Shown here piece by piece: positions 1,077 through 45,722 of a DNA stretch of 64,000 nucleotides. The DNA lies in NCBI GenBank assembly GCA_963971285.1, contig OZ020244.1, positions 930,001 to 994,000 on the forward strand. Direction: 5' to 3'. Every line of letters starts with the position of its first letter. Positions within the stretch are counted from its first letter, which is position 1. Origin of the DNA: Astropecten irregularis. Its lineage: Eukaryota > Echinodermata > Asteroidea > Paxillosida > Astropectinidae. Position numbers and translations under genes: made by a program. A model generated the notes under the pieces. The model saw nothing but the letters and a program-made list of their open reading frames with translations. It made no database searches and was not told the DNA's origin.

Positions 1077-1534
1077 ACACAAGGCTCTGTTAACTTTTAT
1101 CATGACAGGGCTGTCTATCAATCTGCATTTGGCAAACACTGTTATTATTGAGAAAAAAAGTCTTACTCACTTTTGCAGTGAGTCGGCAGTACTATGCCTG
1201 TGCACTAATAGCTTGTTGTTGCTTGCAGATATTGAACCAATGCCATTGGATCAGCATTTACATCAAGTTCCTATAGGAGAAGAGAATTACACATTCCTGT
1301 TACTAATCTCACATTTACTGTTTGATTTCAATTTTGAGGTCAGCAAACAAGTGTTTGGAAACTTGGCAGAGTTTTGAGTTTTGTAGTTTAATAATGCTTG
1401 ATAAAATAATTATTCAGAATAGTCACAAATATGCTGCTATACTGAGGGGAGTCAGTGACATGCAAAACAACACTCAACATGCATGCAATAGAAACAATGG
1501 TAAGCATAATTATGGCTTCTGACTGGCCATCATA

Positions 1535-2237
1535 GGGCTGGATAGCTCAGATGGTACAGCACTGGTGTGACAGTTAATGGGTTATATGGCTTCTGACTGG
1601 CACCCTGATCAAAGACTTTAGGGCCCATCATAGGGCTGGATAGCTCAGATGGTAGAGCACTGGTATGGCAGTTAATGGGTTATATGGCTTCACTCTGGCA
1701 CCCTGAGCAAAGACTTTAGGGGGGGCATCATAGGGCTGGATAGCTCAGATGGTAGAGCACTGGTGTGACAGTTAATGGGTTATATGGCTTCTGACTGGCA
1801 CCCTGAGCAAAGGGGCCCATCATATGGCTAGATAGCTCAGATGGTAGAGCACTGGTGTGACAGTTGTTGGGTTATATTGCTTCTGACTGGCACCCTGATC
1901 AAAGACTTTAGTGGCCCATCATAGGGCTGGATAGCTCAGATGGTAGAGCACTGGTATGGCAGTTGTTGGGTTATATGGCTTCTGACTGGCACCCTGAGCA
2001 AAGACTTTAGGGGCCCATAGGGCTGGATAGCTCAGATGGTAGAGCACTGGTATGGCAGTTGTTGGGTTATATGGCTTCTGACTGGCACCCTGAGCAAAGA
2101 CTTTAGTGGCCCATCATAGGGCTGGATAGCTCAGATGGTAGAGCACTGGTATGACAGTTAATGGGTTATATGGCTTCTGACTGGCACCCTGAGCAAAGAC
2201 TTTAGGGGGCCCATCATAGGGCTGGATAGCTCAGATG
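1535..2237 (+). repeat. Tandem array of tRNA-like 5' halves (about 98-bp unit, 8 copies)
   Basis: Units begin at about 1535, 1633, 1733, 1825, 1924, 2020, 2119 and 2219, each with GGGCTGGATAGCTCAGATGG, then TAGAGCACTGG. This reads as a tRNA acceptor strand, D arm (GCTC...GAGC) and RNA polymerase III A box. The rest of the unit (ATGGCTTCTGACTGGCACCCTGA and on) has no T arm and no B box. The ATGGCTTCTGACTG block also lies just upstream of the tRNA-like sequence at 48.46 kb, so both probably derive from one tRNA-derived SINE family. Confidence 0.85.
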
Positions 2238-2315
2238 TGAGTACACTATTAATCTGTCATAGTTTCCAGTCCAAGTCACCCTAAGCAATTACTGAATATG
2301 AGAATTTGAACCAAC

Positions 2316-2487
2316 CTCCACATATGCCATTGTTGATACAAGGATTGATGAGAACAGCTATCTGTATTTCTAGAAGTTGAGACACTGCACCTGTCAGATC
2401 TTCAGCTAAGACTAGGAAGCTGTCCCATCCATAATAGTTGGCATTTGGTGCATAGGTCAAGGTAGTCATAGCCCAAGTCATGGTATC
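2316..2487 (-). CDS. Exon G: cadherin-like module end plus start of an EGF module
   Basis: The minus strand has a pyrimidine-rich acceptor (TGATCTTTCTACAG) followed by an open 172-nt exon beginning DTMTWAMTT. It contains [20 protein letters not shown], the Y-x-P-N-x-N-Y-x-G-x-D-S-F signature typical of cadherin-like/tandem-95 beta-sandwich repeats. It then reads [17 protein letters not shown] and INNGIC, which is the beginning of an EGF repeat. The proposed donor is GGAG followed by GTTGGT, a weaker site than the acceptor. The combination indicates an extracellular mosaic protein. It is the most 3' exon of the minus-strand gene in this window. Confidence 0.65.
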
Positions 2488-5400
2488 CTGTAGAAAGATC
2501 ACATAATCATGTAACATCATTGGAAAGAGGATCCAACAGACACAATGAAGATATCATTAGCTTTGCATTGGACTCAAGTCAAGTCTTAGACAGTGTCCCA
2601 AATCTCAGGCTCCGGCTGCAAATTACACACGCACCTACTGACCTATGGCAACCACAGTGACTGCAGCTGTTTCCATAGACTTGTGTGTTATTTGCAGCGG
2701 CAGCCAGAGATTTGGGGCAAAGCTTTATTTTCCCTTCCATTTGATGGCCACATTATCAGTTATCATTGTTGGATAACCATAGTGTTTGTCTCCCTCTAGT
2801 GATCATATGTTTAGTCAGGAGTTACCACTCAAGTGAGTGTCTGTCTCCCTCTAGTGATCATGTTTAGTCAGGAGTTTTGTCTCCCTCTAGTGATCATATG
2901 TTTAGTCAGGAGTTACCACTCAAGTGAGTGTCTGTCTCCCTCTAGTGATCATATGTTTAGTCAGGAGTTACCACTCAAGTGAGTGTCTGTCTCCCTCTAG
3001 TGATCATATGTTTAGTCAGGAGTTACCACTCAAGTGAGTGTCTGTCTCCCTCTAGTGATCATATGTTTAGTCAGGAGTTACCACTCAAGTGAGTGTCTGT
3101 CTCCCTCTAGTGATCATATGTTTAGTCAGGAGTTACCACTCAAGTGAGTGTCTGTCTCCCTCTAGTGATCATATGTTTAGTGAGGAGTTACCACTCAAGT
3201 GAGTGTCTGTCTCCCTCTAGTGTTCATATGTTTAGTCAGGAGTTACCACTCAAGTCAGTGTCTGTCTAACTCTAGTGATCATATGTTTAGTCAGGAGTTA
3301 CCACTCAAGTGAGTGTCTGTCTCCCTCTAGTGATCATATGTTTAGTCAGGAGTTACCACTCAAGTGAGTGTCTGTCTCCCTCTAGTGATCATATGATTAG
3401 TCAGGAGTTACCACTCAAGTGAGTGTCTGTCTCCCTCTAGTATTCATATGTTTAGTCAGGAGTTACCACTCAAGTGAGTGTCTGTCTCCCTCTAGTGATC
3501 TTATGTTTAGTCAGGAGTTACCACTCAAGTGAGTGTCTGTCTCCCTCTAGTTTATATGTCTGTGATTGCTACAGTCCTTGACATCTGTGTCAGTGTTCAA
3601 GTTCCATATGTAGGTAACAGGTGCAGAATTGTAACTTGACGAGCAGGATCTTTCTCAAAGTCTATAAAACCTTGTAGCCTTTGAAAAAGATCCTGCTTGC
3701 ATCAAACCACTAATATAAAAGATGAATTCTTACTGTTATTCCAGTAGATAAGTTTGGGTTTGGCCTCTGCTCAGTTGCCTGGTGTGTTGAGACTAATGTT
3801 AATCAACATTGGGTCCTGTAGCTCAGTCTGTCTAAGACTAGCGATGTAGAACTGTGGCTCATACACAAACTGTATCCTACAGGAATAAAGAACATTACAG
3901 TTGAGTGCAGGTTGGGTCTAAGCGACATACATGTACTGAGTAATTATAGGCTCACTTAGTAATAAGACTCAATCAATTTGCAAGAATGTATTACTAATTT
4001 TACACTGTTGTACTGAACTTTTGAAAACTGTCAAATCTATTTAGGATGATGCAAGTAACGATATGATCTGTTTGATAATCAATCTGCTTGTTTGTCCATT
4101 CATGCAAGTAAGGGAACAAAATCAAGAATATGAAGTTTTACAAGACTGTTTCTACATTCAAATATCAAAGTGATAATGGACAGTTACAAGTGACAATTTC
4201 TCAGCCATTTGAGAGTGTATTTCTGTATAACAGCAAACACAAAGAGAAAAACTCTGACTACAAACCTGGCAGTCTGGATGTGTACTGGATGGTGTATAAG
4301 GGATAGGTGATATATGGCATGTACTCAGGAGCAGCATTGGATGTAAATTCCTCATGAACTCTATCAGCATCCAGTAAGCCTAGCACTAGTGATCCACCTC
4401 ACTGCAATCCTAGAAATCAATAACAATCAGGTAAGCAGGTTAGTTTGGTCAAGACACAGTAAATTCCTCATGAACTCTATCAGCATCCAGTAAGCCTAGC
4501 ACTAGTGACCCACCTCACTGCAATCCTAGAAATCAATACCAATCGTGTAAGCAGGTTAGTTTGGTCAAGACACAGTAAATTCCTCATGAACTCTATCAGC
4601 ATCCAGTAAGCCTAGCACTAGTGATCCACCTCACTGCAATCCTAGAAATCAATAACAATCAGGTTAGCAGGTAAGTTTGGTCAAGACAGAGTAAATTCCT
4701 CATGAACTCTATCAGCATCCAGTAAGCCTAGCACTAGTGATCCACCTCACTGCAATCCTAGAAATCAATAACAATCAGGTAAGCAGGTTAGTTTGGTTAA
4801 GACACAGTAAATTCCTCATGAACTCTATCAGCATCCAGTAAGCCTAGCACTAGTGATCCACCTCACTGCAATCCTAGAAATCAATAACAATCAGGTAAGC
4901 AGGTTAGCTTGGTCAAGACACAGTAAATTCCTCATGAACTCTATCAGCATCCAGTAAGCCTAGCACTAGTGATCCACCTCACTGCAATCCTAGAAATTAA
5001 TAACAATCAGGTAAGCAGGTAAGTTTGGTCAAGACACAGTAAATTCCTCATGAACTCTATCAGCATCCAGTAAGCCTAGCACTAGTGATCCACCTCACTG
5101 CAATCCTAGAAATCAATAACAATCGTGTAAGCAGGTTAGTTTGGTCAAGACATAGTAAATTCCTCATGAACTCTATCAGCATCCAGTAAGCCTAGCACTA
5201 GTGATCCACCTCACTGCAATCCTAGAAATTAATAACAATCAGGTAAGCAGGTTAGTTTGGTCAAGACACAGTTAAATTCCTCATGAACTCTATCAGCATC
5301 CAGTAAGCCTAGCACTAGTGATCCACCTCACTGCAATCCTAGGAATCAATAACAATCGTGTAAGCAGGTTAGTTTGGTCAAGACACAGTAAATTCCTCAT

Positions 5401-8400
5401 GAACTCTAAAAGCATCCAGTAAGCCAAAATAATAATAACTATAATTGCACCAAGGCAATGACCAGTGCACCAAGGCAATGACCAGGGGCACCAAGACAAT
5501 GACCAGGGGCACCAAGGCAATGACCAGGGGCACCAAGACAATGACCAGGGGCACCAAGACAATGACCAGGGGCACCAAGGCAATGACCAGGGGCACCAAG
5601 ACAATGACCAGGGGCACCAAGGCAATGACCAGTGCACCAAGACAATGACCAGTGCACCAAGGCAATGACCAGGCAGCACAAAGGCAATAACAAGTGCACC
5701 AAGACAATGAACAGGGGCACAAAGGCAATGACCAGTGCACCAAGGCAATGACCAGAAGCACCAAGACAATGACCAGTGCACCAAGGCAATGACCAGGGGC
5801 ACCAAGACAATGATCAGTGCACCAAGGCACTGATCAGGGGCACCAAGCCAATGACCAGTGCACCAAGGCAATAACCAGTGCACCAAGGCAATGACCAGGA
5901 GCACCAAGGCAATGACCAGGAACACCAAGGCAATGACCAGGGGCACCAAGGCAATGGCCAGTGCACCTAGGCAATGACCAGGAGCACCAAGGCAAGGACC
6001 GGGAAGCACCAAGGCAAGGACCGGGAAGCACCAAGGCAATGACCAGGAGCACCAATGCAATGACCAGGGGCACCAAGGCAATGACCAGGAGCACCAAGGC
6101 AATGACCAGGTGCACCAAGGCAATGACCAGGAGCACCAAGGCAATGACCAGGAGCACCAAGGCAATGACCAGGAGCACCAAGGCAATGACCAGGAGCACC
6201 AAGGCAATGACCAGGAGCACCAAGGCAATGACCAGGAGCACCAAGGCAATGACCAGGAGCACCAAGGCAATGACCAGGAGCACCAAGGCAATGACCAGGC
6301 AGCACCAAGGCAATGACCATTGCACCAAGGCAATGACCAGGAACACAAAGGCAATGGCCAGGGGCACCAAGCCAATGACCGGGAAGCACCAAGGCAATGA
6401 CCAGTGCACCAAGACAATGACCAGGGGCACCAAGGCAATGACCAGGGGCACCAAGACAATGACCAGTGCACCAAGGCAATCTTAACAGAAATTAAAATGG
6501 AATGGAATTACCTCTGATTATCCATTCATCAGGAGTGAAATCCACACATGTTTCATGTTCTACTTCAACTCTGGTTTCATTGATGATTAATCCTGGTGCA
6601 GGTGGAGTCAAGTCAGCTATGATTGCTACTGATGAGATGATGTTCTCATATGCTACGTAGTTCAGCAGTTCTATGTTGAAGTAGTAGAGATTATTGTAAT
6701 CCAGATGGACTGAGTCATGACTGAACTCCACTGTATGACCGATACCAAGACGCTCATAGTGTGTCAAGAGACCATACTGGAAGGAAGAAAGGTCAAATGA
6801 AAAGCAAATGAATCTGAAACTGAAATATTATCACCACTGACATGAGCTGGTGCAGAGCTCTCCAAAGGTTTTCTATCTTCCTCTGTCTCTTGAAACCTAA
6901 GGCAATTCAGGAAATTAATTGATCATGACAGGTGAATAAAAATGCCAGAATGATCTGCTAACTGGTGAAATATGAAGAATTATTTGCTAAATCAAGCAGC
7001 AATTCTTCAAGTACACAACTGTAATATTGAGTCCTCGGATATTACCCTTCACATTTGGTCATCCTTGGGGGTAATAGACATTTCATTTTATCCATCTGAC
7101 GTTTTGATCCTAGCATGATGTTCAATAAAGATCCGGTTTTGATTTAAAGGTCCAGCCCTTCTAACTCCAAGATATTTATACATTTCAGGTTATTATTTTG
7201 GCTGATGAGCAGTTTACAGCAGTTTATTACATGTCTTGATTAGAAGTCAGTGTATTATCCAGTTTGCTTAGGTCATCCCTAGGAACATTCAAGTGAGTGT
7301 CTGTCTCCCTCTAGTTTATATGTCTGTGATTGCTACAGTCCTTGACACCTGTGTCAGTGTTCAAGTTCCATATGTAGGTAACAGGTGCAGAATTATAACT
7401 TGACTAGCAGGATCTTTATCAAAGTCTATAAAACCTTGTAGCCTTTGAAAAAGATCCTGCTTGCATCAAACCACTAATATAAATGAAGAATTCTTACTGT
7501 TATTCCAGTAGATAAGTCTGGGTTTGGTCTCTGTCCAGTTGCCTGGTATGTTGAGACTAAAATTAATCAACATTGTGTCCTTTAGCTCAGTCTGTCCAAG
7601 ATGTAGAACTGTGGCTCATACACAAACTGTATCCTACAGGAATAAAGAACAATACAGTTGAGTGCAGGTTGGGTCTAAGCGACATACATGTACTGAGTAA
7701 TTGGGCTCACTTAGTAATTAGACTCAATCAATTTGCAAGAATTTATTACTAATTTTGCACTGATGTACTGATTTTTTCAATGCTGTCAATTCTATTTAGG
7801 ATGATGCAAGAAACAATCTGATCTGTTTGATAATCAATCTGATTGTTTGTCCATTCGCGCAAGTAAGGAAACAAAATCAAGAATTTGATGTTTTACAAGA
7901 CTGTTTCTACATTCAAATAGCAAAGTGATAATGGACAGTTACAAGTGACAATTTCTCAGCCATTTGAGAGTGTATTTCTGTATAACAGCAAACACAAAGA
8001 GAAAAACTCTGACTACAAACCTGGCAGTCTGGATGTGTACTGGATGGTGTATAAGGGATAGGTGATATGGCATGTACTCAGGAGCAGCATTGGATGTAAA
8101 TTCCTCATGAACTCTATCAGCATCCAGTAAGCCTAGCACTAGTGATCCACCTCACTGCAATCCTAGAAATCAATAACAATCAGGTTAGCAGGTTAGTTTG
8201 GTCAAGACACAGTAAATTCCTCAGGAACTCTATCAGCATCCAGTAAGCCTAGCACTAGTGATCCACCTCACTGCAATCCTAGAAATCAATAACAATCAGG
8301 TTAGCAGGTTAGTTTGGTCAAGACACAGTAAATTCCTCATGAACTCTATCAGCATCCAGTAAGCCTAGCACTAGTGATCCACCTCACTGCAATCCTAGAA

Positions 8401-11400
8401 ATCAATAACAATCAGGTAAGCAGGTTATTTTGGTCAAGACACAGTAAATTCCTCATGAACTCTATCAGCATCCAGTAAGCCTAGCACTAGTGACCCACCT
8501 CACTGCAATCCTAGAAATCAATAACAATCAGGTAAGCAGGTTAGTTTGGTCAAGACACAGTAAATTCCTCAGGAACTCTATCAGCATCCAGTAAGCCTAG
8601 CACTAGTGATCCACCTCACTGCAATCCTATAAATCAATAACAATCAGGTAAGCAGGTTATTTTGGTCAAGACACAGTAAATTCCTCATGAACTCTATCAG
8701 CATCCAGTAAGCCTAGCACTAGTGACCCACCTCACTGCAATCCTAGAAATCAATAACAATCAGGTAAGCAGGTTAGTTTGGTCAAGACACAGTAAATTCC
8801 TCAGGAACTCTATCAGCATCCAGTAAGCCTAGCACTAGTGATCCACCTCACTGCAATCCTAGAAATCAATAACAATCAGGTAAGCAGGTTATTTTGGTCA
8901 AGACACAGTAAATTCCTCATGAACTCTATCAGCATCCAGTAAGCCTAGCACTAGTGACCCACCTCACTGCAATCCTAGAAATCAATAACAATCAGGTAAG
9001 CAGGTTAGTTTGGTCAAGACACAGTAAATTCCTCATGAACTCTATCAGCATCCAGTAAGCCTAGCACTAGTGACCCACCTCACTGCAATCCTAGAAATCA
9101 ATAACAAACAGGTAAGCAGGTTAGTTTGGTCAAGACACAGTAAATTCCTCATGAACTCTATCAGCATCCAGTAAGCCTAGCACTAGTGATCCACCTCACT
9201 GCAATCCTAGAAATCAATAACAATCAGGTTAGCAGGTTAGTTTGGTTAAGACACAGTAAATTCCTCATGAACTCTATCAACATCCAGTAAGCCTAGCACT
9301 AGTGATCCACCTCACTGCAATCCTAGAAATCAATAACAATCAGGTAAGCAGGTTAGTTTGGTCAAGACACAATATTTTCCTCATGAACTCTATCAACATC
9401 CAGAAAGCCTAGCACTAGTGATCAACCTCACTGCAATCCTAGAAATCAATAACAATCAGGTAAGCAGGTTAGTTTGGTCAAGACACAGTAAATTCCTCAT
9501 GAACTCTATCAGCATCCAGTAAGCCTAGCACTAGTGATCAACCTCACTGCAATCCTAGAAATCAATAACAATCAGGTAAGCAGGTTAGTTTGGTCAAGAC
9601 ACAGTAAATTCCTCATGAACTCTATCAGCATCCAGTAAGCCTAGCACTAGTGATCAACCTCACTGCAATCCTAGAAATCAATAACAATCAGGTAAGCAGG
9701 TTAGTTTGGTCAAGACACAGTAAATTCCTCATTAACTCTATCAGCATCCAGTAAGCCTAGCACTAGTGATCCACCTCACTGCAATCCTAGAAATCAATAA
9801 CAATCAGGTAAGCAGGTTAGTTTGGTCAAGACACAGTAAATTCCTCATGAACTCTATCAGCATCCAGTAAGCCTAGCACTAGTGATCCACCTCACTGCAA
9901 TCCTAGAAATCAATAACAATCAGGTAAGCAGGTTAGTTTGGTTAAGACACAGTAAATTCCTCATGAACTCTATCAGCATCCAGTAAGCCTAGCACTAGTG
10001 ATCCACCTCACTGCAATCCTAGAAATCAATAACAATCAGGTTAGCAGGTTAGTTTGGTCACGACACAGTAAATTCCTCATGAACTCTATCAACATCCAGT
10101 AAGCCTAGCACTAGTGATCCACCTCACTGCAATCCTAGAAATCAATAACAATCAGGTTAGCAGGTTAGTTTGGTCAAGACACAGTAAATTCCTCAGGAAC
10201 TCTATCAGCATCCAGTAAGCCTAGCACTAGTGACCCACCTCACTGCAATCCTAGAAATCAATAACAATCAGGTAAGCAGGTTAGTTTGGTCAAGACACAG
10301 TAAATTCCTCATGAACTCTATCAGCATCCAGTAAGCCTAGCACTAGTGATCCACCTCACTGCAATCCTAGAAATCAATAACAATCAGGTAAGCAGGTTAG
10401 TTTGGTTAAGACACAGTAAATTCCTCATGAACTCTTTCAACATCCAGTAAGCCTAGCACTAGTGATCCACCTCACTGCAATCCTAGAAATCAATAACAAT
10501 CAGGTAAGCAGGTTAGTTTGGTCAAGACACAGTAAATTCCTCATGAACTCTATCAGCATCCAGTAAGCCTAGCACTAGTGATCAACCTCACTGCAATCCT
10601 AGAAATCAATAACAATCAGGTAAGCAGGTTAGTTTGGTCAAGACACAGTAAATTCCTCATTAACTCTATCAGCATCCAGTAAGCCTAGCACTAGTGATCC
10701 ACCTCACTGCAATCCTAGAAATCAATAACAATCAGGTAAGCAGGTTAGTTTGGTCAAGACACAGTAAATTCCTCATGAACTCTATCAGCATCCAGTAAGC
10801 CTAGCACTAGTGATCCACCTCACTGCAATCCTAGAAATCAATAACAATCAGGTAAGCAGGTTAGTTTGGTTAAGACACAGTAAATTCCTCATGAACTCTA
10901 TCAGCATCCAGTAAGCCTAGCACTAGTGATCCACCTCACTGCAATCCTAGAAATCAATAACAATCAGGTTAGCAGGTTAGTTTGGTCAAGACACAGTAAA
11001 TTCCTCATGAACTCTATCAACATCCAGTAAGCCTAGCACTAGTGATCCACCTCACTGCAATCCTAGAAATCAATAACAATCAGGTTAGCAGGTTAGTTTG
11101 GTCAAGACACAGTAAATTCCTCAGGAACTCTATCAGCATCCAGTAAGCCTAGCACTAGTGACCCACCTCACTGCAATCCTAGAAATCAATAACAATCAGG
11201 TAAGCAGGTTAGTTTGGTCAAGACACAGTAAATTCCTCATGAACTCTATCAGCATCCAGTAAGCCTAGCACTAGTGATCCACCTCACTGCAATCCTAGAA
11301 ATCAATAACAATCAGGTAAGCAGGTTAGTTTGGTCAAGACACAGTAAATTCCTCATGAACTCTATCAGCATCCAGTAAGCCTAGCACTAGTGATCCACCT

Positions 11401-14400
11401 CACTGCAATCCTAGAAATCAATAACAATCAGGTAAGCAGGTTAGTTTGGTTAAGACACAGTAAATTCCTCATGAACTCTATCAGCATCCAGTAAGCCTAG
11501 CACTAGTGATCCACCTCACTGCAATCCTAGAAATCAATAACAATCAGGTAAGCAGGTTAGTTTGGTCAAGACACAGTAAATTCCTCATGAACTCTATCAG
11601 CATCCAGTAAGCCTAGCACTAGTGATCCACCTCACTGCAATCCTAGAAATCAATAACAATCAGGTAAGCAGGTTAGTTTGGTTAAGACACAGTAAATTCC
11701 TCATGAACTCTATCAGCATCCAGTAAGCCTAAATAATAATAACTATTGCACCAAGGCAATGACCAGTGCAAAAAGGCAATGACCAGTGCACCAAGGCAAT
11801 GACCAGAAGCACCAAGACAATGACCAGGAGCACCAAGACAATGACCAGGGGCACCAAGGCAATGACCAGGCAATAACAAGTGCACCAAGACATTGACCAG
11901 GGGCACCAAGGCAATGACCAGGGGCACCAAGGCAATAACCAGGGGCACCAGGGCAATGACCAGGCAATAACAAGTGCACCAAGACATTGACCAGGGGCAC
12001 CAAGCCAATGACCAGTGCACCAAGGCAATGACCAGAAGCACCAAGACAATGACCAGTGCACCAAGGCAATGACCAGGGGCACCAAGACAATGACCAGTGC
12101 ACCAAGGAAATGACCAGGGGCACCAAGCCAATGACCAGTGCACCAAGGCAATGACCAGGGGCACCAAGGCAATGGCCAGGGGCACCAAGCCAATGACCAG
12201 GAACACCAAGACAATGACCAGGCAACACCAAGGCAATGACCAGGGGCACCAAGGCAATGACCAGGCAGCACCAAGGCAATGACCAGTGCACCAAGACAAT
12301 GACCAGGGGCACCAAGGCAATGACCAGTGCACCAAGGCAATGACCAGTGCACCAAGCAATGACCAGGGGCACCAAGACAATGACCAGGCAACACCAAGGC
12401 AATGACCAGGGGCACCAAGGCAATGACCAGGCAGCACCAAGGCAATGACCAGTGCACCAAGACAATGACCAGGGGCACCAAGGCAATGACCAGTGCACCA
12501 AGGCAATGACCAGTGCACCAAGCAATGACCAGGGGCACCAAGACAATGACCAGGCAACACCAAGGCAATGACCAGGGGCACCAAGGCAATGACCAGGCAG
12601 CACCAAGGCAATGACCAGTGCACCAAGACAATGACCAGGGGCACCAAGGCAATGACCAGTGCACCAAGGCAATGACCAGTGCACCAAGCAATGACCAGGG
12701 GCACCAAGGCAGTGACCAGGGGCACCAAGACAATGACCAGTGCACCAAGGCAATCTTAACAGAAATTAAAATGGAATGGAATTACCTCTGATTATCCATT
12801 CATCAGGAGTAAAATCCACACATGTTTCATGTTCTACTTCATCTCTGGTTTCATTGATGATTAATCCTGGTGCAGGTGGAATCAAGTCAGCTATGATTGC
12901 TACTGATGAGATGATGTTCTCATATGCTACGTAGTTCAGCAGTTCTATGTTGAAGTAGTAGATATTATTGTGATCCAGATGGACTGAGTCATGACTGAAC
13001 TCCACTGTATGACCAATACCAAGACGCTCATAGTGTGTCAAGAGACCATACTGGAAGGAAGAAAGGTCAAATGAAAAGCAAATGAATCTGAAACTGAAAT
13101 ATTATCACCACTGACATGAGCTGGTGCAGAGCTCTCCAAAGGTTTGCTATCTTCCTCTGTCTCTTGAAACCTAAGGCAATTCAGGAAATTAATTGATCAT
13201 GACAGGTGAATAAAAATGCCAGAATGATCTGCTAACTGGTAAAATATGAAGAATTATTTGCTAAGTCAAGTGAGTGTCTGTCTCCCTCTAGCTTATATGT
13301 CTGTGATTGCTACAGTCCTTGACACCTGTGTCAGTGTTCAAGTTTCATATGTAGGTAACAGGTGCAGAATTATAACTTGACTAGCAGAATCTTTCTCAAA
13401 GTCTATAAAACCTTGTAGCCTTTGAAAAAGATCCTGCTTGCATCAAACCACTAATATAAATGAAGAATTCTTACTGTTATTCCAGTAGATAAGTCTGGGT
13501 TTGGTCTCTGTCCAGTTGCCTCGTGTGTTGAGACTAATATTAATCAACATTGGGTCCTGTAGCTCAGTCTGTCCAAGATGTAGAACTGTGGCTCATACAC
13601 AAACTGTATCCTACAGGAATAAAGAACATTACAGTTGAGTGCAGGTTGGGTCTAAGTGACATACATGTACTGAGTAATTAGGCTCACTTAGTAATTAGAC
13701 TCAATCAATTTGCAAGAATGTATTACTAATTTTGCACTGATGTACTGATCTTTTCAAAACGGTCAAATCTATTTAGGATGATGCAAGTAACAATCTGATT
13801 TGTTTGATAATCAATCTGCTTGTTTGTCCATTCGTGCGAGTAAGGAAACAAAATCAAGTATTTGAAGTTTTACAAGACTGTTCCTACATTCAAATATCAA
13901 AGTGATAATGGACAGTTACAAGTGACAATTTCTCAGTCATTTGAGAGTGTATTTCTGTATAACAGCAAACACAAAGAGAAAAACTCTGACTACAAACCTG
14001 GCAGTCTGGATGTGTACTGGATGGTGTATAAGGGATAGGTGATATGGCATGTACTCAGGAGCAGCATTGGATGTAAATTCCTCATGAACTCTATCAGCAT
14101 CCAGTAAGCCTAGCACTAGTGATCCACCTCACTGCAATCCTAGAAATTAATAACGATCGTGTAAGCAGGTTAGTTTGGTCAAGACACAGTAAATTCCTCA
14201 TGAACTCTATCAGCATCCAGTAAGCCTAGCACTAGTGATCCACCTCACTGCAATCCTAGAAATTAATAACAATCAGGTAAGCAGGTTAGTTTGGTCAAGA
14301 CACAGTAAATTCCTCATGAACTCTATCAGCATCCAGTAAGCCTAGCACAAGTGATCCATCTCACTGCAATCCTAGAAATCAATAACAATCAGGTAAGCAG

Positions 14401-17400
14401 GTTAGTTTGGTCAAGACACAGTAAATTCCTCATGAACTCTATCAGCATCCAGTAAGCCTAGCACAAGTGATCCACCTCACTGCAATCCTAGAAATCAATA
14501 ACAATCAGGTAAGCAGGTTAGTTTGGTCAAGACACAGTAAATTCCTCATGAACTCTATCAGCATCCAGTAAGCCTAGCACTAGTGATCCACCTCACTGCA
14601 ATCCTAGAAATCAATAACAATCAGGTAAGCAGGTTAGTTTGGTCAAGACACAGTAAATTCCTCATGAACTCTATCAGCATCCAGTAAGCCTAGCACTAGT
14701 GATCCACCTCACTGCAATCCTAGAAATCAATAACAATCAGGTAAGCAGGTTAGTTTGGTCAAGACACAGTATTTCCCTCATGAACTCTATCAACATCCAG
14801 TAAGCATAGCACTAGTGATCCATCTCACTGCAATCCTAGAAATCAATAACAATCAGGTAAGCAGGTTAGTTTGGTTAAAACACAGTAAATTCCTCATGAA
14901 CTCTATCAGCATCCAGTAAGCATAGCACTAGTGATCCACCTCAGTGCAATCCTAGAAATCAATAACAATCAGGTAAGCAGGTTAGTTTGGTTAAAACACA
15001 GTAAATTCCTCATGAACTCTATCAGCATCCAGTAAGCCAAAATAATAATAACTATTGCACCAAGGCAATGACCAGTGCAAAAAGGCAATGACCAGTGCAC
15101 CAAGGCAATGACCAGGGGCACCAAGACAATGACCAGAAGCACCAAGGCAACGACCAGAAGCACCAACACAATGACCAGGAGCACCAAGACAATGACCAGG
15201 GGCACCAAGGCAATGACCAGGGGCACCAAGACAATGACCAGGGGCACCAAGGCAATGACCAGTGCACCAAGACAATGACCAGTGCACCAAGGCAATGACC
15301 AGGCAGCACAAAGGCAATAACAAGTGCACCAAGGCAATGACCAGTGCACCAAGGCAATGACCAGGCAGCACAAAGGCAATAACAAGTGCACCAAGACAAT
15401 GACCAGGGGCACAAAGGCAATGACCAGTGCACCAATGCAATGACCAGAAGCACCAAGACAATGACCAGTGCACCAAGGCAATGACCAGGGGCACCAAGAC
15501 AATGATCAGTGCACCAAGGCAATGATCAGGGGCACCAAGCCAATGACCAGGGGCACCAAGGCAATGGCCAGGGGCACCAAGCCAATGACCAGGAACACCA
15601 AGGCAATGACCAGGGGCACCAAGCCAATGACCAGTGCACCAAGGCAATGACCAGTGCACCAAGGCAATGACCAGTGCACCAAGGCAATGACCAGGAGCAC
15701 CAAGGCAATGACCAGGAACACCAAGGCAATGACCAGGGGCACCAAGGCAATGGCCAGTGCACCTAGGCAATGACCAGGAGCACCAAGGCAAGGACCGGGA
15801 AGCACCAAGGCAATGACCAGGAGCACCAATGCAATGACCAGGGGCACTAAGGCAATGACCAGGAGCACCAAGGCAATGACCAGGAGCACCAAGGCAATGA
15901 CCAGGAGCACCAAGGCAATGACCAGGAGCACCAAGGCAATGACCAGGAGCACCAAGGCAATGACCAGGAGCACCAAGGCAATGACCAGGAGCACCAAAGC
16001 AATGACCAGGAGCACCAAGGCAATGACCAGGAGCACCAAGGCAATGACCAGGAGCACCAAGGCAATGACCAGGAGCACCAAGGCAATGACCAGGAGCACC
16101 AAGGCAATGACCAGGCAGCACCAAGGCAATGACCATTGCACCTAGGCAATGACCAGGAACACAAAGGCAATGGCCAGGGGCACCAAGCCAATGACCGGGA
16201 AGCACCTAGGCAATGACCAGGAACACCAAGACAATAACCAGGCAGCACCAAGGCAATGATCAGGGGCACCAAGGCAATGACCAGTGCACCAAGACAATGA
16301 CCAGTGCACCAAGGCAATGACCAGGCAGCACCAAGGCAATGACCAGTGCACCAAGACAATGACCAGGGGCACCAAGGCAATGACCAGTGTACCAAGGCAA
16401 TGGCCAGTGCACCAGGCAATGACCAGGGGCACCAAGGCAATGACCAGGGGCACCAAGACAATGACCAGTGCACCAAGGCAATCTTAACAGAAATTAAAAT
16501 GGAATGGAATTACCTCTGATTATCCATTCATCAGGAGTGAAATCCACACATGTTTCATGTTCTACTTCATCTCTGGTTTCATTGATGATTAATCCTGGTG
16601 CAGGTGGAATCAAGTCAGCTATGATTGCTACTGATGAGATGATGTTCTCATATGCTACGTAGTTCAGCAGTTCTATGTTGAAGTAGTAGAGATTATTGTG
16701 ATCCAGATGGACTGAGTCATGACTGAACTCCACTGTATGACCGATACCAAGACGCTCATAGTGTGTCAAGAGACCATACTGGAAGGAAGAAAGGTCAAAT
16801 GAAAAGCAAATGAATCTGAAACTGAAATATTATCACCACTGACATGAGCTGGTGCAGAGCTCTCCAAAGGTTTGCTATCTTCCTCTGTCTCTTGAAACCT
16901 AAGGCAATTCAGGAAATTAATTGATCATGACAGGTGAATAAAAATGCCAGAATGATCTGCTAACTGGTGAAATATGAAGAATTATTTGCTATATCGAGCA
17001 GCAATTCCTCAAGTACACGATCGTAATATTGAGTCCTAAGATATGACTCTTTGAGAATATTACCCTTCACATTTGGTCAACCTTGGTGGTAATAGACAGT
17101 TAGTATTATCTATCTGACGTTTTGATCCTAGCAGGATTTTCAAAAAAGATCCTGCTTGGATTAAAAGGTATGCCCCTTTTAACTCCCAAGCATTTGATAC
17201 ATTTCAGGTTATTATTTTGGCTGATGAGCAGTTTACAGCAGTTTATTACATGTATTGATTAGAAGTCAGTGTATTATCCAGTTTGCTTAGGTCATCTCTA
17301 GGAACAAAGTAAAGTAGCACCTGTGAAATGATGGCTGATGGTCCAGCAAACTCGGTCTTGAAGATGATGTTACTCCCTCCAGGAACAGTACCAACCTGGT

Positions 17401-18368
17401 ATTAGAAGGTGACTAAGCTCCTATCATCAGCTGCAGCTATCTCTAGCTGGAAGGCTGGCTGTGTATAATCTAGTCCAGGTATCTGCTCTACATCACACCT
17501 GTTGCCACCTGCTGCACTCCTTCTAGTTACTCCATCCTTTACATGATTGAAAGAAGGTATTGAAGAATCAAATGTTATCAGCCTTGTCAAACAAATCTTT
17601 GTATCAGTGCTTAAAGGTGCATGTTCACATTACAATTTGGTTTAGATTTCCATCATGGAAATATGTTGTCTGTCAAGTTCCATGCAATGGGTGAAGATGC
17701 CCTACAAGTTACAGTTAATAATATGTAAATATATTCAAAATAATGTAGCGGTAGCTAATGGCCCTTTCACATAGGACCTTGTTGCAGTGATGCAACAAAA
17801 TATTGGTAATGCTTTAAGTTTCAAGGTATTTAAGGAGAGAAACTTTAATGCTGGTTGGTAATGCTAAAAAGCCAGGCCAGGCCTGCGCTTTGCCTGGGTT
17901 GTTGGGCTTCTATAATCCATAGACTTGAACTATCAACTTCAAGCCCTGCTTTGTCCTGCATCATAGTTTGCACTATTAATGAACTAAAAGACTGAGTCCA
18001 TATTGATCATGGACAAAATTCAGAAGCCAGGCTTTGTAGTGAAGTTCAGGGCTGACAAGAGAAGGATTTCAGGCCTGAAGGCCAGGGCTTGGCCAGGCTT
18101 TTCAGTGGTCGAGCCCTGGCCCGTATTAAAGTTTCTTTCCTAAGAGAATAGATTCAAGTTACCACTGCTGTTGAGTAGTCTTCAATAGCAGGTGGAGATG
18201 AATCAAGTCTCTTAGTGTCAACATCAAATATATTGCTATGTATTGAAGAGGCTTGGTATCTCCACAGATCTGTCTTGTATAGAGTCTTGCGACCAAAGAA
18301 AGGAACCTTCAAGGTGACTAAACCTTTGAGATGGAGTATCAACGGAATCATCTATATCCATCTTCAGT
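2316..18368 (-). CDS. Gene model: large extracellular mosaic protein, exons on the minus strand, apparently decaying
   Basis: Read on the minus strand, the exons run F (18.3 kb), E (17.5 kb), then A-B-C three times, then G (2.4 kb). E ends in phase 0 and A starts in phase 0. A ends in phase 1 and B needs phase 1. B ends in phase 2 and C needs phase 2. This agreement supports a real exon order. The content (D-x-TPP-x-PG motif, cadherin-like beta-strand motif, start of an EGF module) points to a secreted or cell-surface adhesion or matrix protein. Exon C ends in phase 1 while the next A and G need phase 0, so exons are missing from this model or skipped. Several exons carry stops or frameshifts. 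The protein family is not named with certainty, and promoter and first exon are not seen. Confidence 0.5.
2597..2716. mobile_element. Short palindromic element, ~34-bp inverted ends
   Basis: CCCAAATCTC.GGCT..GCTGCAAAT.ACACAC at 2597-2630 is repeated in inverted orientation at 2683-2716 with about 3-4 mismatches, around a 50-bp centre. The structure fits a minimal MITE or a long hairpin. No second copy was noticed in the window. Confidence 0.7.
2785..3551. repeat. 55-bp tandem repeat, about 14 copies
   Basis: TCTGTCTCCCTCTAGTGATC recurs every 55 bp (for example 2932, 2987, 3042, 3097, 3152), with one shortened unit near 2860-2880. The last unit runs into TTTATATGTCTGTGATTGCT. That same junction begins the second and third copies of the large duplication at 7.29 and 13.27 kb, so a single 55-bp unit marks each duplication start. 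Confidence 0.95.
3734..3876 (-). pseudogene. Exon C, copy 1, with premature stop
   Basis: The acceptor TTCTTTATTCCTGTAG and the donor AACA followed by GTAAGAATT bound a 143-nt exon. In phase 2 it reads [20 protein letters not shown], then [14 protein letters not shown], then TGA. In copies 2 and 3 the codon at that place is TGG (N-W-T-E-T). This copy keeps the 7 bp missing from the others but has gained a stop, so its frame closes about 35 codons in. The protein family is not recognised. Confidence 0.55.
4266..4379 (-). pseudogene. Exon B, copy 1, with 2-bp insertion
   Basis: This copy of exon B starts after the acceptor GTGCTAG and reads [20 protein letters not shown], then loses frame. It carries GATATATGG where the other two copies have GATATGG. 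It is 114 nt against 112 nt, and the extra two bases shift the frame near the middle. The donor (GCCAG followed by GTTTGT) is intact. Its first ~37 nt are the segment multiplied in the adjoining 116-bp array. Confidence 0.6.
4380..5425 (-). repeat. 116-bp tandem array 1, 9 units
   Basis: The word CATGAACTCTATCAGCATCC recurs every 116 bp from the true exon B copy at 4352 to 5396. Read on the minus strand, each unit contains the splice acceptor sequence GGATCACTAGTGCTAG, the first ~37 nt of exon B, and about 80 nt of intron. The array ends at 5425, right at the exon-start boundary, where an AAATAATAATA tract and then the 21-bp minisatellite begin. Confidence 0.95.
5448..6480. repeat. 21-bp minisatellite, array 1
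   Basis: About 49 units of GCACCAAGGCAATGACCAGG-type sequence fill this stretch, with frequent G/A and GGG/GTG variants. The unit length is a multiple of three, so long open frames exist on both strands and in several frames (up to 393 codons). These are artefacts of the repeat. It lies inside the intron between exons A and B of module 1. Confidence 0.95.
6512..6776 (-). CDS. Exon A, copy 1: extracellular domain with D-x-TPP-x-PG motif
   Basis: A strong minus-strand acceptor (CCTTTCTTCCTTCCAG) opens a 265-nt exon that ends at CAGAG followed by GTAATTCC. The 88 complete codons start [20 protein letters not shown] and carry [14 protein letters not shown] at residues 54-67. D-x-TPP-x-PG is common in fibronectin-III/Ig-like repeats of large invertebrate extracellular proteins. 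There is a single cysteine, at residue 77. Phase is 0 in, 1 out. Compared with copies 2 and 3 it has Y27 (H), T57 (I) and V70 (D). The exon is open and looks intact. Exact domain family not assigned. Confidence 0.7.
6777..7290. other. Intron flank of exon A, shared between modules
   Basis: No coding signal was seen. From 7107 there is a degenerate TTTTGATCCTAGCA...AAAGATCC block that matches 17115-17160 and is related to the motif of the 60-bp array at 48.9 kb. The end at 7290 is the duplication breakpoint. Confidence 0.6.
7498..7633 (-). pseudogene. Exon C, copy 2, with 7-bp deletion
   Basis: It has the same acceptor and donor as copy 1, but 136 nt rather than 143. Seven bases are missing at the ATC-GCTAGTCTTAG position of copy 1, shifting the frame after FYIL. 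The downstream part keeps the TGG codon that is a stop in copy 1 (N-W-T-E-T-K-P). The lesion is therefore complementary to that of copy 1. Confidence 0.55.
8021..8132 (-). CDS. Exon B, copy 2, open
   Basis: This is a 112-nt exon bounded by GTGCTAG and by GCCAG followed by GTTTGT. In phase 1 it reads [20 protein letters not shown], then [16 protein letters not shown], without a stop, and leaves phase 2 for exon C. Phase agreement with exon A (phase 1 out) supports this acceptor rather than the better pyrimidine tract a little upstream (TTATTGATTTCTAG), use of which would bring in-frame stops. Confidence 0.6.
8133..11730 (-). repeat. 116-bp tandem array 2, 31 units, with higher-order structure
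   Basis: Thirty-one 116-bp periods separate the first and last CTC..GAACTCTATCA words (8104 and 11701). Variant markers recur about 928 bp apart: CATTAACTC near 9730 and 10660, CAACATCC near 10090 and 11017, CAGGAACTC near 10195 and 11122. That means a block of eight units was itself duplicated. GTTATTTTGGTC variants recur every 232 bp near 8424, 8655 and 8887, a two-unit pattern. Each unit carries a copy of the exon B acceptor. Confidence 0.95.
11747..12754. repeat. 21-bp minisatellite, array 2
   Basis: These are units of the same GCACCAAGGCAATGACCAG family as array 1. A block starting at GCAACACCAAGG near 12222 repeats near 12388 and 12554, a period of about 166 bp or eight units, so this array also expanded in blocks. 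Long open frames in several phases are repeat artefacts. Confidence 0.95.
12786..13050 (-). CDS. Exon A, copy 2
   Basis: This is 265 nt with the same acceptor (CTTTCTTCCTTCCAG) and donor (CAGAG followed by GTAATT) as copy 1. It encodes the same 88 residues with H27, I30, I57 and D70. The TPPAPG motif and the single cysteine at residue 77 are kept. It is open throughout. The few differences from copies 1 and 3 indicate a recent duplication. Confidence 0.7.
13475..13610 (-). pseudogene. Exon C, copy 3, with 7-bp deletion
   Basis: It is 136 nt with the same 7-bp deletion as copy 2 and an intact acceptor and donor. After [13 protein letters not shown] the frame reaches TGA. The other frame then reads [20 protein letters not shown], which resembles the continuation seen in copy 1. 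Sharing the deletion suggests copies 2 and 3 are closer to each other than to copy 1. Confidence 0.55.
13998..14109 (-). CDS. Exon B, copy 3, open
   Basis: This is a 112-nt exon identical in layout to copy 2 ([20 protein letters not shown], then [16 protein letters not shown]), entering in phase 1 and leaving in phase 2. It is bordered on the right by the 8-unit 116-bp array whose units repeat its first ~37 nt. Confidence 0.6.
14110..15038 (-). repeat. 116-bp tandem array 3, 8 units
   Basis: Eight 116-bp periods run between 14083 and 15011. Variants such as CATAGCAC for CCTAGCAC and GTTAAAACAC mark the right-hand units. It ends at AGTAAGCC, then AAAATAATAATA and the 21-bp minisatellite, the same junction as arrays 1 and 2. 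Confidence 0.95.
15055..16482. repeat. 21-bp minisatellite, array 3
   Basis: This is the longest of the three arrays, about 68 units. A homogeneous run of GAGCACCAAGGCAATGACCAG covers roughly 15840-16110, matching a similar run in array 1 at 6040-6295. All long open frames here are repeat artefacts (7-residue periodic peptides in several frames on both strands). Confidence 0.95.
16514..16778 (-). CDS. Exon A, copy 3
   Basis: This 265-nt exon has intact acceptor and donor and the same 88-codon reading as copies 1 and 2 (H27, I57, D70). It follows exon E upstream in transcription: E ends in phase 0 and this exon begins in phase 0 (TAT GGT CTC), so the E-to-A junction is consistent. The TPPAPG motif is at residues 57-62. 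Confidence 0.7.
17321..17590 (-). pseudogene. Exon E: extracellular repeat domain with one in-frame stop
   Basis: The minus strand reads [20 protein letters not shown], then [17 protein letters not shown], then TAA (17402-17404). It then continues in the same frame [20 protein letters not shown] and PSAIISQ to a donor CACAG followed by GTGCT. The sense of the frame on both sides of the stop shows one domain interrupted by a single codon, either a mutation or a base-calling error. Phase out is 0. The upstream acceptor is uncertain, so the 5' limit is approximate. The family resembles uncharacterised invertebrate extracellular repeats. Confidence 0.55.
17834..18140. mobile_element. TIR element with TAA target duplication
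   Basis: GGAGAGAAACTTTAATGCTGG at the left is inverted at the right as CCGTATTAAAGTTTCTTTCC, and both sides are flanked by TAA (17831-17833 and 18141-18143). The interior has GGCCAGGCCTG/CAGGCCTGAAGGCC words shared with the related element at 47605-48104. A 3-bp TWA target site is typical of PIF/Harbinger elements. There is no coding capacity, so it is non-autonomous. Confidence 0.65.
18163..18368 (-). pseudogene. Candidate exon F of the minus-strand gene, probably frame-broken
   Basis: The acceptor GGCATCCACAG and the donor CAGCAGTG followed by GTAACTT bound 206 nt. One frame reads [20 protein letters not shown], then [20 protein letters not shown], and stays open through the donor in phase 0, but it begins with TGA and TAG codons just after the acceptor. 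Another frame is open at the start and closes later. The splice sites suggest a real exon, and the frames suggest it is broken. Low confidence. Confidence 0.35.
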
Positions 18369-32355: not shown

Positions 32356-34877
32356 TATGACAAAACCAGGGGCTTATGTATGAGATGACAAAACCAGGGG
32401 CTTATGTATGAGATGACAAAACCAGGGGCTTATGTATGAGATGACAAAACCAGGGGCTTGTGTATAGATGACAAAACCAGGGGCATATGTATGAGATGAC
32501 AAAACCAGGGGCTTGTGTATGAGATGACAAAACCAGGGGCTTATGTATGAGATGACAAAACCAGGGGCTTGTGTATAGATGACAAAACCAGGGGCTTGTG
32601 TATGAGATGACAAAACCAGGGGCTTATGTATGAGATGACAAAACCAGGGGCTTATGTATGAGATGACAAAACCAGAGGCTTATGTATGAGATGACAAAAC
32701 CAGAGGCTTATGTATGAGATGACAAAACTAGTGGCTTATGTATGAGATGACAAAACCAGGGGCTTATGTATGAGATGACAAAACCAGGGGCTTGTGTATG
32801 AGATGACAAAACCAGGGGCTTGTGTATAGATGACAAAACCAGGGGCATATGTATGAGATGACAAAACCAGGGGCTTGTGTATGAGATGACAAAACCAGGG
32901 GCTTATGTATGAGATGACAAAACCAGGGGCTTGTGTATGAGATGACAAAACCAGGGGCTTATGTATGAGATGACAAAACCAGGGGCTTATGTATGAGATG
33001 ACAAAACCAGGGGCTTATGTATGAGATGACAAAACTAGTGGCTTATGTATGAGATGACAAAACCAGGGGCTTATGTATGAGATGACAAAACCAGGGGCTT
33101 GTGTATGAGATGACAAAACCAGGGGCTTGTGTATAGATGACAAAACCAGGGGCATATGTATGAGATGACAAAACCAGGGGCTTGTGTATGAGATGACAAA
33201 ACCAGGGGCTTATGTATGAGATGACAAAACCAGGGGCTTGTGTATGAGATGACAAAACCAGGGGCTTATGTATGAGATGACAAAACCAGGGGCTTATGTA
33301 TGAGATGACAAAACCAGGGGCTTGTGTATAGATGACAAAACCAGGGGCTTGTGTATAGATGACAAAACCAGAGGCTTATGTATGAGATGACAAAACCAGG
33401 GGCTTATGTATAGATGACAAAACCAGGGGCTTGTGTATGAGATGACAAAACCAGAGGCTTATGTATGAGATGACAAAACCAGGGGCTTGTGTATAGATGA
33501 CAAAACCAGGGGCTTGTGTATGAGATGACAAAACCAGGGGCTTATGTATGAGATGACAAAACCAGAGGCTTATGTATGAGATGACAAAACCAGGGGCTTA
33601 TGTATGAGATGACAAAACCAGGGGCTTGTGTATAGATGACAAAACCAGGGGCATATGTATGAGATGACAAAACCAGGGGCTTGTGTATGAGATGACAAAA
33701 CCAGGGGCTTATGTATGAGATGACAAAACCAGGGGCTTGTGTATAGATGACAAAACCAGGGGCTTATGTATGAGATGACAAAACCAGGGGCTTGTGTATA
33801 GATGACAAAACCAGGGGCTTATGTATGAGATGACAAAACCAGGGGCTTGTGTATAGATGACAAAACCAGCTAGGCTTATGTATGAGATGACAAAACCAGG
33901 GGCTTGTGTATAGATGACAAAACCAGGGGCTTATGTATGAGATGACAAAACCAGGGGCTTATGTATGAGATGACAAAACCAGGGGCTTGTGTATAGATGA
34001 CAAAACCAGGGGCTTGTGTATGAGATGACAAAACTAGTGGCTTATGTATGAGATGACAAAACCAGGGGCTTGTGTATAGATGACAAAACCAGGGGCTTAT
34101 GTATGAGATGACAAAACCAGGGGCTTGTGTATAGATGACAAAACCAGAGGCTTATGTATGAGATGACAAAACCAGGGGCTTGTGTATAGATGACAAAACC
34201 AGGGGCTTATGTATGAGATGACAAAACCAGGGGCTTGTGTATGAGATGACAAAACTAGTGGCTTATGTATGAGATGACAAAACCAGGGGCTTGTGTATAG
34301 ATGACAAAACCAGGGGCTTATGTATGAGATTACAAAACCAGGAGCTTGTGTATAGATGACAAAACCAGGGGCTTATGTATGAGATGACAAAACCAGGGGC
34401 TTGTGTATAGATGACAAAACCAGGGGCTTATGTATGAGATGACAAAACCAGGGGCTTGTGTATAGATGACAAAACCAGAGGCTTATGTATGAGATGACAA
34501 AACCAGGGGCTTGTGTATAGATGACAAAACCAGGGGCTTATGTATGAGATGACAAAACCAGGGGCTTGTGTATAGATGACAAAACCAGGGGCTTATGTAT
34601 GAGATGACAAAACCAGGGGCTTGTGTATAGATGACAAAACCAGGGGCTTATGTATGAGATGACAAAACCAGGGGCTTGTGTATAGATGACAAAACCAGGG
34701 GCTTGTGTATGAGATGACAAAACCAGGGGCTTATGTATGAGATGACAAAACCAGGGGCTTGTGTATAGATGACAAAACCAGGGGCTTGTGTATGAGATGA
34801 CAAAACCAGGGGCTTGTGTATAGATGACAAAACCAGGGGCTTATGTATGAGATGACAAAACCAGGGGCTTGTGTATT
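32356..34877. repeat. 26/28-bp minisatellite, roughly 90 units
   Basis: GATGACAAAACCAGGGGCTT is followed either by ATGTATGA (28-bp unit) or by GTGTATA (26-bp unit), with minor AGAGGC, CTAGTGGC and GGGGCATA variants. Runs of the two unit types alternate regularly in the right half. The array stops about 60 bp before a CCAAT box and about 1.0 kb before the PAN-FReD start codon. Open frames of 60-79 codons inside it are artefacts. Confidence 0.97.
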
Positions 34878-44209: not shown

Positions 44210-45722
44210 CTGTCGTTGGCTGCAGACAGTGGACCGATATTGCACGGGCAGACCTTTGTTATATTGGTCCGCTGTTGTATGCCGACAGTGGACCGACCGA
44301 TATTGCACGGGCAGACCTTTGTTATATTGGTCCGCTGTTGGATGCTGACAGTGGACCGATATTGCACGGGCAGACCTTTGTTATATTGGTCCGCTGTTGG
44401 ATGTCGACAGTGGACCGATATTGCACGGGCGGACCTTTGTTATATTGGTCTGCTGTTGGATGCTGACAGTGGACCGATATTGCACGGGCAGACCTTTGTT
44501 ATATTGGTCCGCTGTTGGCTGCCGACAGTGGACCGTTATTGCACGGGCAGATCGACCTTTGTTATATTGGTCCGCTGTTGGATGCCGACAGTGGACCGAT
44601 ATTGCACGGGCAGACCTTTTTTATATTGGTCCGCTGTTGGCTGCCGACAGTGGACTGATATTGCACGGGCAGACCTTTGTTATATTGGTCCGCTGTTGGA
44701 TGCTGACAGTGGACCGATATTGCACGGGCAGACCTTTGTTATATTGGTCCGCTGTTGGATGCTGACAGTGGACCGATATTGCACGGGCAGACCTTTGTTA
44801 TATTGGTCTGCTGTTGGATGCTGACAGTGGACCGATATTGCACGGGCAGACCTTTGTTATATTGGTCCGCTGTTGTCTGCCGACAGTGGACCGATATTGC
44901 ACGGGCGGATTTTTGTTATATTGGTCCGCTGTTGGCTGCCGACAGTGGACCGATATTGCACGGGCGGACCTTTGTTATATTGGTCCGCTGTTAGATGCCG
45001 ACAGTGGACCGATATTGCACGGAGGACCTTTGTTATATTGGTCCGCTGTTGGCTGCCGACAGTGGACCGATATTGCACGGGCAGACCTTTGTTATATTGG
45101 TCCGCTGTTGGATGTCGACAGTGGACCTATATTGCACGGGCGGACCTTTGTTATATTGGTCCGCTGTTGGCTGCCGACAGTGGACCGATATTGCGCGGGC
45201 GGACCTTTGTTTTATTCGTCTGCTGTTGGCTGCCGACAGTGGACCAATATTGCTCGGGCAGACCTTTGTTATATTGGTCCGCTGTTGGATGCTGACAGTG
45301 GACCGATATTGCACGGGCAGACCTTTGTTATATTGGTCCGCTGTTGGTTGCCGACAGTGGACCGATATTGCACGGGCAGACCTTTGTTATATTGGTCAGC
45401 TGTTGGCTGCCGACAGTGGACCGATATTGCACAGGCGGACCTTTGTTATATTGGTCTGCTGTTGGCTGCTGACAGTGGACCAATATTGCACGGGCAGACC
45501 TTTGTTATATTGGTCCACTGTTGGCTGCCGACAGTGGACCGATATTGCACGGGCAGACCTTTGTTATATTGGTCCGCTGTTGGCTGCCGACAGTGGACCG
45601 ATATTGCACGGGCGGACCTTTGTTATATTGGTCCGCTGTTGGCTGCCGACAGTGGACCGATATTGCACGGGCAGACCTTTGTTATATTGGTCCGCTTTTG
45701 GATGCCGACAGTGGACCACTTA
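44210..45722. repeat. 59-bp tandem repeat, about 25 units
   Basis: GACAGTGGACCGATATTGCA, then CGGGCAGACCTTTGTTATAT, then TGGTCCGCTGTTGG.TGC repeats every 59 bp with 62-bp variants near 44285 and 44550. The words GGACCGAT and GTCCGC.GTTGG are shared with the 105-bp repeat, so this array probably grew from part of a 105-bp unit. Open frames up to 308 codons are artefacts of the repeat. Confidence 0.97.

Follow-up and report, generated by a model that had tools for sequence, protein, structure and literature searches.

The window considered here, that is, the whole 64-kb stretch of DNA that was analysed (G000:C1:930001-994000, from a 475.7-Mb assembly), contains three arrays of a 116-bp repeat unit, each of which, on the minus strand, passes straight into the sequence of an exon, exon B. 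The arrays are held in a tandem triplication, whose pieces are 91-97% identical to each other, and each copy of the triplication carries on the minus strand an exon A, an array of a 21-bp unit, a 116-bp array, exon B and an exon C. Specifically, array copy 1 (4343..5425) is composed of 9 full units, copy 2 (8096..11731) of 31 and copy 3 (14073..15038) of 8, all on the minus strand and all with an additional partial unit of 37-39 nt at the 5′ (minus-strand) edge. Tandem Repeats Finder (TRF) assigns them scores of 2017, 6950 and 1792, respectively, with 96-97% matches within the arrays, and modules of the TAG|GATTGCA type amount to 48 in the window (9+31+8). Accordingly, the 116-bp arrays of 9, 31 and 8 units that an earlier note had described in this DNA are borne out by TRF and unit counts, while the exon boundary proposed there and the details derived from it have to be revised. 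A strict higher-order repeat in array copy 2 was considered and discarded, as lag 8 is barely better than lag 1 (2.26 versus 2.53 differences).

Position of the exon B boundary

All exon models were built from splice motifs, reading frames and homology, and all lie on the minus strand. Exon A is located at 6512..6776, 12786..13050 and 16514..16778 in copies 1, 2 and 3, respectively; with respect to the copy on contig C30, discussed below, a stretch of 31 nt close to the 3′ end is missing from copy 1, whose length and 3′ end are shared by copies 2 and 3. An unrelated junction at this 3′ end was rejected as an explanation, since the alignment consists of an internal gap of 31 nt with the donor region kept. 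Exon B is found at 4266..4409 (144 nt, re-bounded by homology to start at TTTCTAG|GATTG), 8021..8162 and 13998..14139 (142 nt each), and all three copies carry an in-frame TGA, located at codon 4 in copy 1. Exon C occupies 3734..3876, with an in-frame TGA, 7498..7633 and 13475..13610, the latter two being 7 nt shorter than copy 1 and shifted in frame. The protein of the joined exons A and B matched no Pfam family.

The exon B acceptor had previously been set at ACTAGTGCTAG. When AGs were scored by a simple weight matrix and ranked among the 7868 AGs of the window, ACTAGTGCTAG reached the 56th percentile and TTTCTAG|GATTG, 30 nt upstream, the 97th; on the same scale the exon A acceptors stand at 99.8 and those of exon C at 99.2-99.8. 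Moreover, by homology, the acceptor of array-free paralogues sits at the TTTCTAG|GATTG position. It is likely that exon B is entered at TTTCTAG|GATTGCAG and that ACTAGTGCTAG falls 30 nt inside the exon, a placement based on homology to seven paralogues without arrays and to two open copies that have them, all from the same genome. Because the homologues place the acceptor at TTTCTAG, the unit is read as 49 nt of the intron 3′ end, comprising CTAAC, a pyrimidine tract and AG, followed by the initial 67 nt of exon B; in other words, the repeat straddles an intron-exon boundary, as defined by homology to the paralogues. The unit covers 67 of the 142-144 nt of exon B and not, as previously described, its first third, and the decoy acceptors number 8, 30 and 7 instead of 9 to 31, because the last module of each array belongs to exon B itself. 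The array edge does fall within a few bases of the exon start proposed earlier, but that point lies inside the exon, and the GCTAG site regarded as a constant of the unit is gone from 2 of the 8 units of copy 3. What holds in kind is the description of a unit multiplying an acceptor and an exon start directly 5′ of the exon, with the acceptor 30 nt further upstream. The 5′ edge TTATTATTATTTAG was also considered as the original exon B acceptor and rejected, as it is not there in the C30 and array-free copies. As a general caution, repeat-free homologues were required to place the likely exon boundary.

The copies on C1, the contig of the window, and on C15 might instead use ACTAGTGCTAG|GCTTACTGG, which would join exon A (CAGAG) in frame and skip the TGA. 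Exon A ends in phase 1, GGC TTA CTG would carry the frame on, and GTGCTAG is present in 46 of the 48 window units. However, besides its low rank the site has a poor pyrimidine tract, the acceptor of the homologues is the upstream one, and in the window copies the frame would be lost further on: copy 1 enters exon C out of frame, and a stop within that exon is met by copies 2 and 3. Such usage appears very unlikely.

When the consensus unit is read on the plus strand (window 4343-15038), a CAG|GTAAGC donor follows its moderate acceptor by 17 nt. Splicing of the unit on this strand was considered and rejected: the donor ranks at the 99.5th percentile, yet the paired acceptor only at the 84th. 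No plus-strand gene across the arrays was noticed in the lists of open reading frames (no gene finder was run).

Array-bearing and array-free copies in the genome

The 116-bp unit has at least 131 matches in the genome, a lower bound, which fall between 35 kb and 1.22 Mb of C1 and on the contigs C15 and C30. Exon B is attached at 17 array-bearing loci, and L018 additionally has units without exon B. In all 17 loci an extra copy of the exon start, at least partial, lies upstream of exon B, and the tandem copies adjoin the genuine exon, the last unit being the exon itself. Full-unit counts range from 1 to 31 among the 18 paralogous arrays of this one assembly, as obtained by a chain walk that includes the exon's own module; L016, L019, L021 and L022 hold one module more than this count, as an intron piece precedes their first exon piece, and L015, L018 and L020 consist of one module plus a partial unit. 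On C1 (39 Mb) the places fall within the initial 1.25 Mb, and on C15 (21.7 Mb) within the final 0.41 Mb, end locations that would fit a subtelomeric duplicon.

An exon B free of both array and stop occurs at seven loci (C27, three on C12, C10 and two on C19), with the acceptor at the TTTCTAG position in six of them and CCTG in place of AG in L038. Upstream of exon B, the C30, C27, C12, C10 and C19 copies have an exon Z (..CAGGGAG, the array modules of C30 being of the GATTGCAGCGAGG type), and the end of exon Z and the start of exon B are both in phase 1. The distance between exons A and B is ~18-31 kb when C27 and C30 are taken together (28-31 kb in C30). In the window, what follows exon A is thus not its ancestral neighbour, exon B being preceded by exon Z in these other copies.

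Two array-bearing C30 genes, in the regions 173-204 kb and 1.806-1.840 Mb of that contig, read open through exons Z-B-C. These open genes have 1 and 3 extra modules and the dead copies 0 to 30; an in-frame TGA is found in all 15 readable C1/C15 exon Bs and CGA in both C30 exon Bs. Moreover, the C30 loci retain a complete first module and native intron at the 5′ edge of the array. In most C1/C15 arrays the repeat starts ~30 nt into the exon and is preceded by the flank of the 21-bp array; this edge is best read as truncation of an older array because the C30 loci keep the complete module and native intron. A 79-nt segment inserted as an element with a 37-bp target-site duplication was considered as well and rejected, as L022 and L021 show the native intron end and exon start. 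A single genome with array-free genes, open array genes and dead copies represents a natural dose series for the choice of the spliceosome among near-identical acceptors.

One of the C30 genes contains a second array (L030:8748-9425). Its 133-bp unit combines ~118 nt that look like exon with 15 nt starting at GTGAGT, the motif by which alone the exon end is set, and the array has five donor-like sites, four GTGAGT and one GCGAGT, of which the first is the exon's own. The other C30 copy (L032:2100-2374) has two donor-like sites, one of them without GT (ATGAGT). This is apparently a boundary-spanning array on the donor side and, if the donor reading is right, the occurrence of acceptor and donor arrays in the same gene suggests that the formation of boundary arrays is recurrent in the lineage. 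The idea of an ordinary intronic satellite that touches the exon by chance agrees with the many unrelated minisatellites of the window and is hardly credible: the unit includes 67 nt of exon B, its last copy coincides with the exon wherever exon B is attached, and a C30 gene carries the second, apparently exon-donor-spanning, array.

Origin and fate of the arrays

We consider, with good confidence, that the 116-bp arrays are a ‘mirage’, that is, a boundary-spanning minisatellite born in an ancestral gene, and that they are now satellite DNA within a pseudogene in the window, likely without a splicing role. The ancestral gene, judging from its exons, would have encoded a large modular extracellular protein. 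One segment of it, formed by the final 49 nt of the intron before exon B (with the branch-point-like CTAAC, the pyrimidine tract and TTTCTAG) and the 67 nt with which this exon begins, would have been duplicated head to tail. A microhomology-mediated tandem duplication is suggested because AATTTAC, which closes the exon part of the unit, and AATGTAC, in the native intron flank, have 6 of 7 bases in common; the first module is preceded by native intron ..CTCAATGTACGAAACTAACC in L022 and by ..CTCGATGTACAAGGAATTTACTGTGTC in L021. The copy number may later have changed by unequal exchange or slippage. In the derived fragment, a deletion between two satellites probably removed exon Z together with most of the A-B interval (28-31 kb in C30), since the 21-bp array, which in the window lies at 5447..6480 (separating exon A from the 116-bp array), 11747..12754 and 15057..16482, is also present in C30, in the intron after exon A. 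The fragment would also have lost 31 nt of exon A and gained the TGA in exon B; further copying would then have taken it to C1 and C15, with at least 16 places in total, of which the window contains three.

A tree based on exon C and the remainder of exon B was built from 19 rows, namely 16 array-bearing loci and three of the seven array-free ones (two identical), with L017 and L018 omitted. A 100/100 branch splits array-bearing from array-free rows and the 14 C1/C15 rows make up a 99/99 branch, a pattern that fits a single founding duplication and does not prove it. For the comparison of units, 113 of 116 were used, three being dropped as out of register. Units differ by 3.09 within a locus versus 4.35 between loci, a gap that none of 500 label shuffles reached, and the nearest neighbour comes from the same locus for 41.8 of 110 units versus 12.8 expected; the within-locus means of L013 (17.67) and L022 (15.00), which look inflated by indels, were retained. 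The units thus undergo concerted evolution within a cluster, with a modest effect, and recent duplication of whole loci explains some of the unit sharing. The ratio of nonsynonymous to synonymous substitution rates (dN/dS) over exons B and C, each C30 copy versus three array-free loci, lies at 0.13-0.25. Rows of exon A that involve L017 were ignored, as an indel puts them out of frame.

For the array in the window, the absence of any splicing role, and of any effect at the RNA level, is most likely. If the window copy were transcribed, a TTTCTAG acceptor, whether decoy or genuine, would lead to a stop. The functional decoy-acceptor reading put forward earlier is unsupported in the window, because exon B has an in-frame stop and further frame lesions follow. 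In a broader form, tandem acceptors would compete with the genuine exon B acceptor and array length would set the amount of productive mRNA. In its favour, the AG is kept in all 113 in-register units and CTAAC in 102, in the C30 copy L022 the acceptor of the single extra module, located upstream, scores 2.9 versus 0.6 for the genuine site, and a decoy-initiated reading is predicted to run into a stop in C30 too; we nonetheless regard it as rather unlikely. A wider proposal is that mirages are recurrent at exon boundaries, echinoderms included, that the extra TTTCTAG modules of C30 act as poison acceptors, with array length setting productive splicing, and that a stop spread by homogenisation helped to kill the C1/C15 copies; this too is speculative and has little probability in our view. 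Overall, the earlier note is partly supported: it was right in kind about the arrays, it misplaced the acceptor, and its functional reading is unsupported in the window.

Several observations weigh against a dead mirage in the window and its proposed origin. The exon models are an inference from DNA sequence. When the two C30 copies are compared, their exon Bs differ by 7 nonsynonymous and 2 synonymous changes (dN/dS 1.31), counts too few to judge, yet not what firm constraint predicts, and dN/dS is 0.66 over exons B and C; constraint may thus be relaxing in the C30 genes as well. Because the four loci on C12 and C10 are almost the same in sequence, the independent array-free evidence amounts to about three sequences. 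The proposed microhomology is based on two native flanks (L022 and L021) that differ between themselves. Furthermore, use of the weak GCTAG located 30 nt downstream would maintain the frame in C1/C15 and skip the TGA, and exons B and C of L011 show no further stop or net frame shift, the last ~14 exon B residues of this locus being in a frame unlike that of the open copies. Finally, a coding-like conserved region U (17301..17630, minus strand), upstream of exon A copy 3, has an in-frame TAA at 17402-17404 in the window copy and in L020, but this codon is TAC, and no stop, in 9 of the 11 copies found (window included).

Elsewhere in the window, long minisatellites of different sequences are located at 32357-34876, 44215-45717 and 58092-59459, with units of 28, 59 and 87 bp. 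A 99-bp array at 1527-2237 has a unit including GGGCTGGATAGCTCAGATGGTAGAGC, which resembles the 5′ half of a tRNA, and its counterpart at L032:3616-4082 has a 109-bp unit, also with GGGCTGGATAGCTCAGATGGTAGAGC; ARAGORN reported no tRNA in window positions 1200-2600, around the 99-bp array.

Lineage and comparison with known systems

In the mitochondrial COX1 of this genome, all four aligned AAA codons fall at Asn positions of 5j4z_BN, a mitochondrial COX1 of solved structure, a fifth AAA lying outside the query, and the echinoderm code (table 9) is inferred because AAA reads Asn. Table 9 is also used by some flatworms; the echinoderm assignment is helped by the COX1 found here, which looks deuterostome-like. 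An amphioxus origin of the genome was rejected on the same AAA codons. A search for the GFP family gave no match at E<=0.001 in the genome, nor did it in control genomes, and the best E value for a lancelet-type GFP query was 2.5. Two further COX1 matches were observed: one of full length on C131 (L039), without in-frame stop under the standard reading, perhaps from a bacterial contig, and a partial one at C25:9951047-9952018 (L041), which resembles that of C168 and is perhaps a nuclear copy of mitochondrial DNA.

The arrays belong to a known kind. Amphioxus ‘mirages’ are tandem repeats across intron-exon boundaries, described in Adh3, the globins BflGb6 and BflGb9, troponin C and PGBD5 (PMC3087553, PMC3902484), the last two being presented as further cases (PMC3902484), and regular splicing was suggested by reverse-transcription PCR (PMC3087553). 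The earlier remark that this is an unusual way for a satellite to arise thus holds, but the way had already been named. In BflGb6, the intron 3′ end and the 5′ part of exon 2 are repeated in units of 150-160 bp, with 6 and 3 copies in two haplotypes and concerted evolution (PMC3087553, PMC3902484). Similarly, the 116-bp unit joins an intron 3′ end to an exon start and is homogenised within loci; in contrast to the amphioxus cases, up to 31 units are found here, the array is dispersed inside a duplicated pseudogene fragment and it is known from DNA alone. A search of open-licence literature under echinoderm (not sea urchin or sea star) returned only the amphioxus PGBD5 case and no echinoderm array, and one on exon-intron minisatellites named mirage only the amphioxus globin case.

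Other systems share part of these features. The minisatellite of human IFI6 (6-16) is reported to contain multiple splice donor sites, two repeat units serving as alternative donors (PMC4526556); it likewise multiplies a splice signal, but a donor with reported use in mRNA, whereas here it is an acceptor. In the potato RdRp gene, intron gain by tandem genomic duplication is reported (PMC4974935), a duplication within a gene that also involves splice signals, although a new intron was gained there and neither a new intron nor a new exon is shown here. Amphioxus mirages are reported in cephalochordates, whereas the mitochondrial code points here to an echinoderm, and boundary-spanning arrays are thereby placed outside the lineage in which we found them described.

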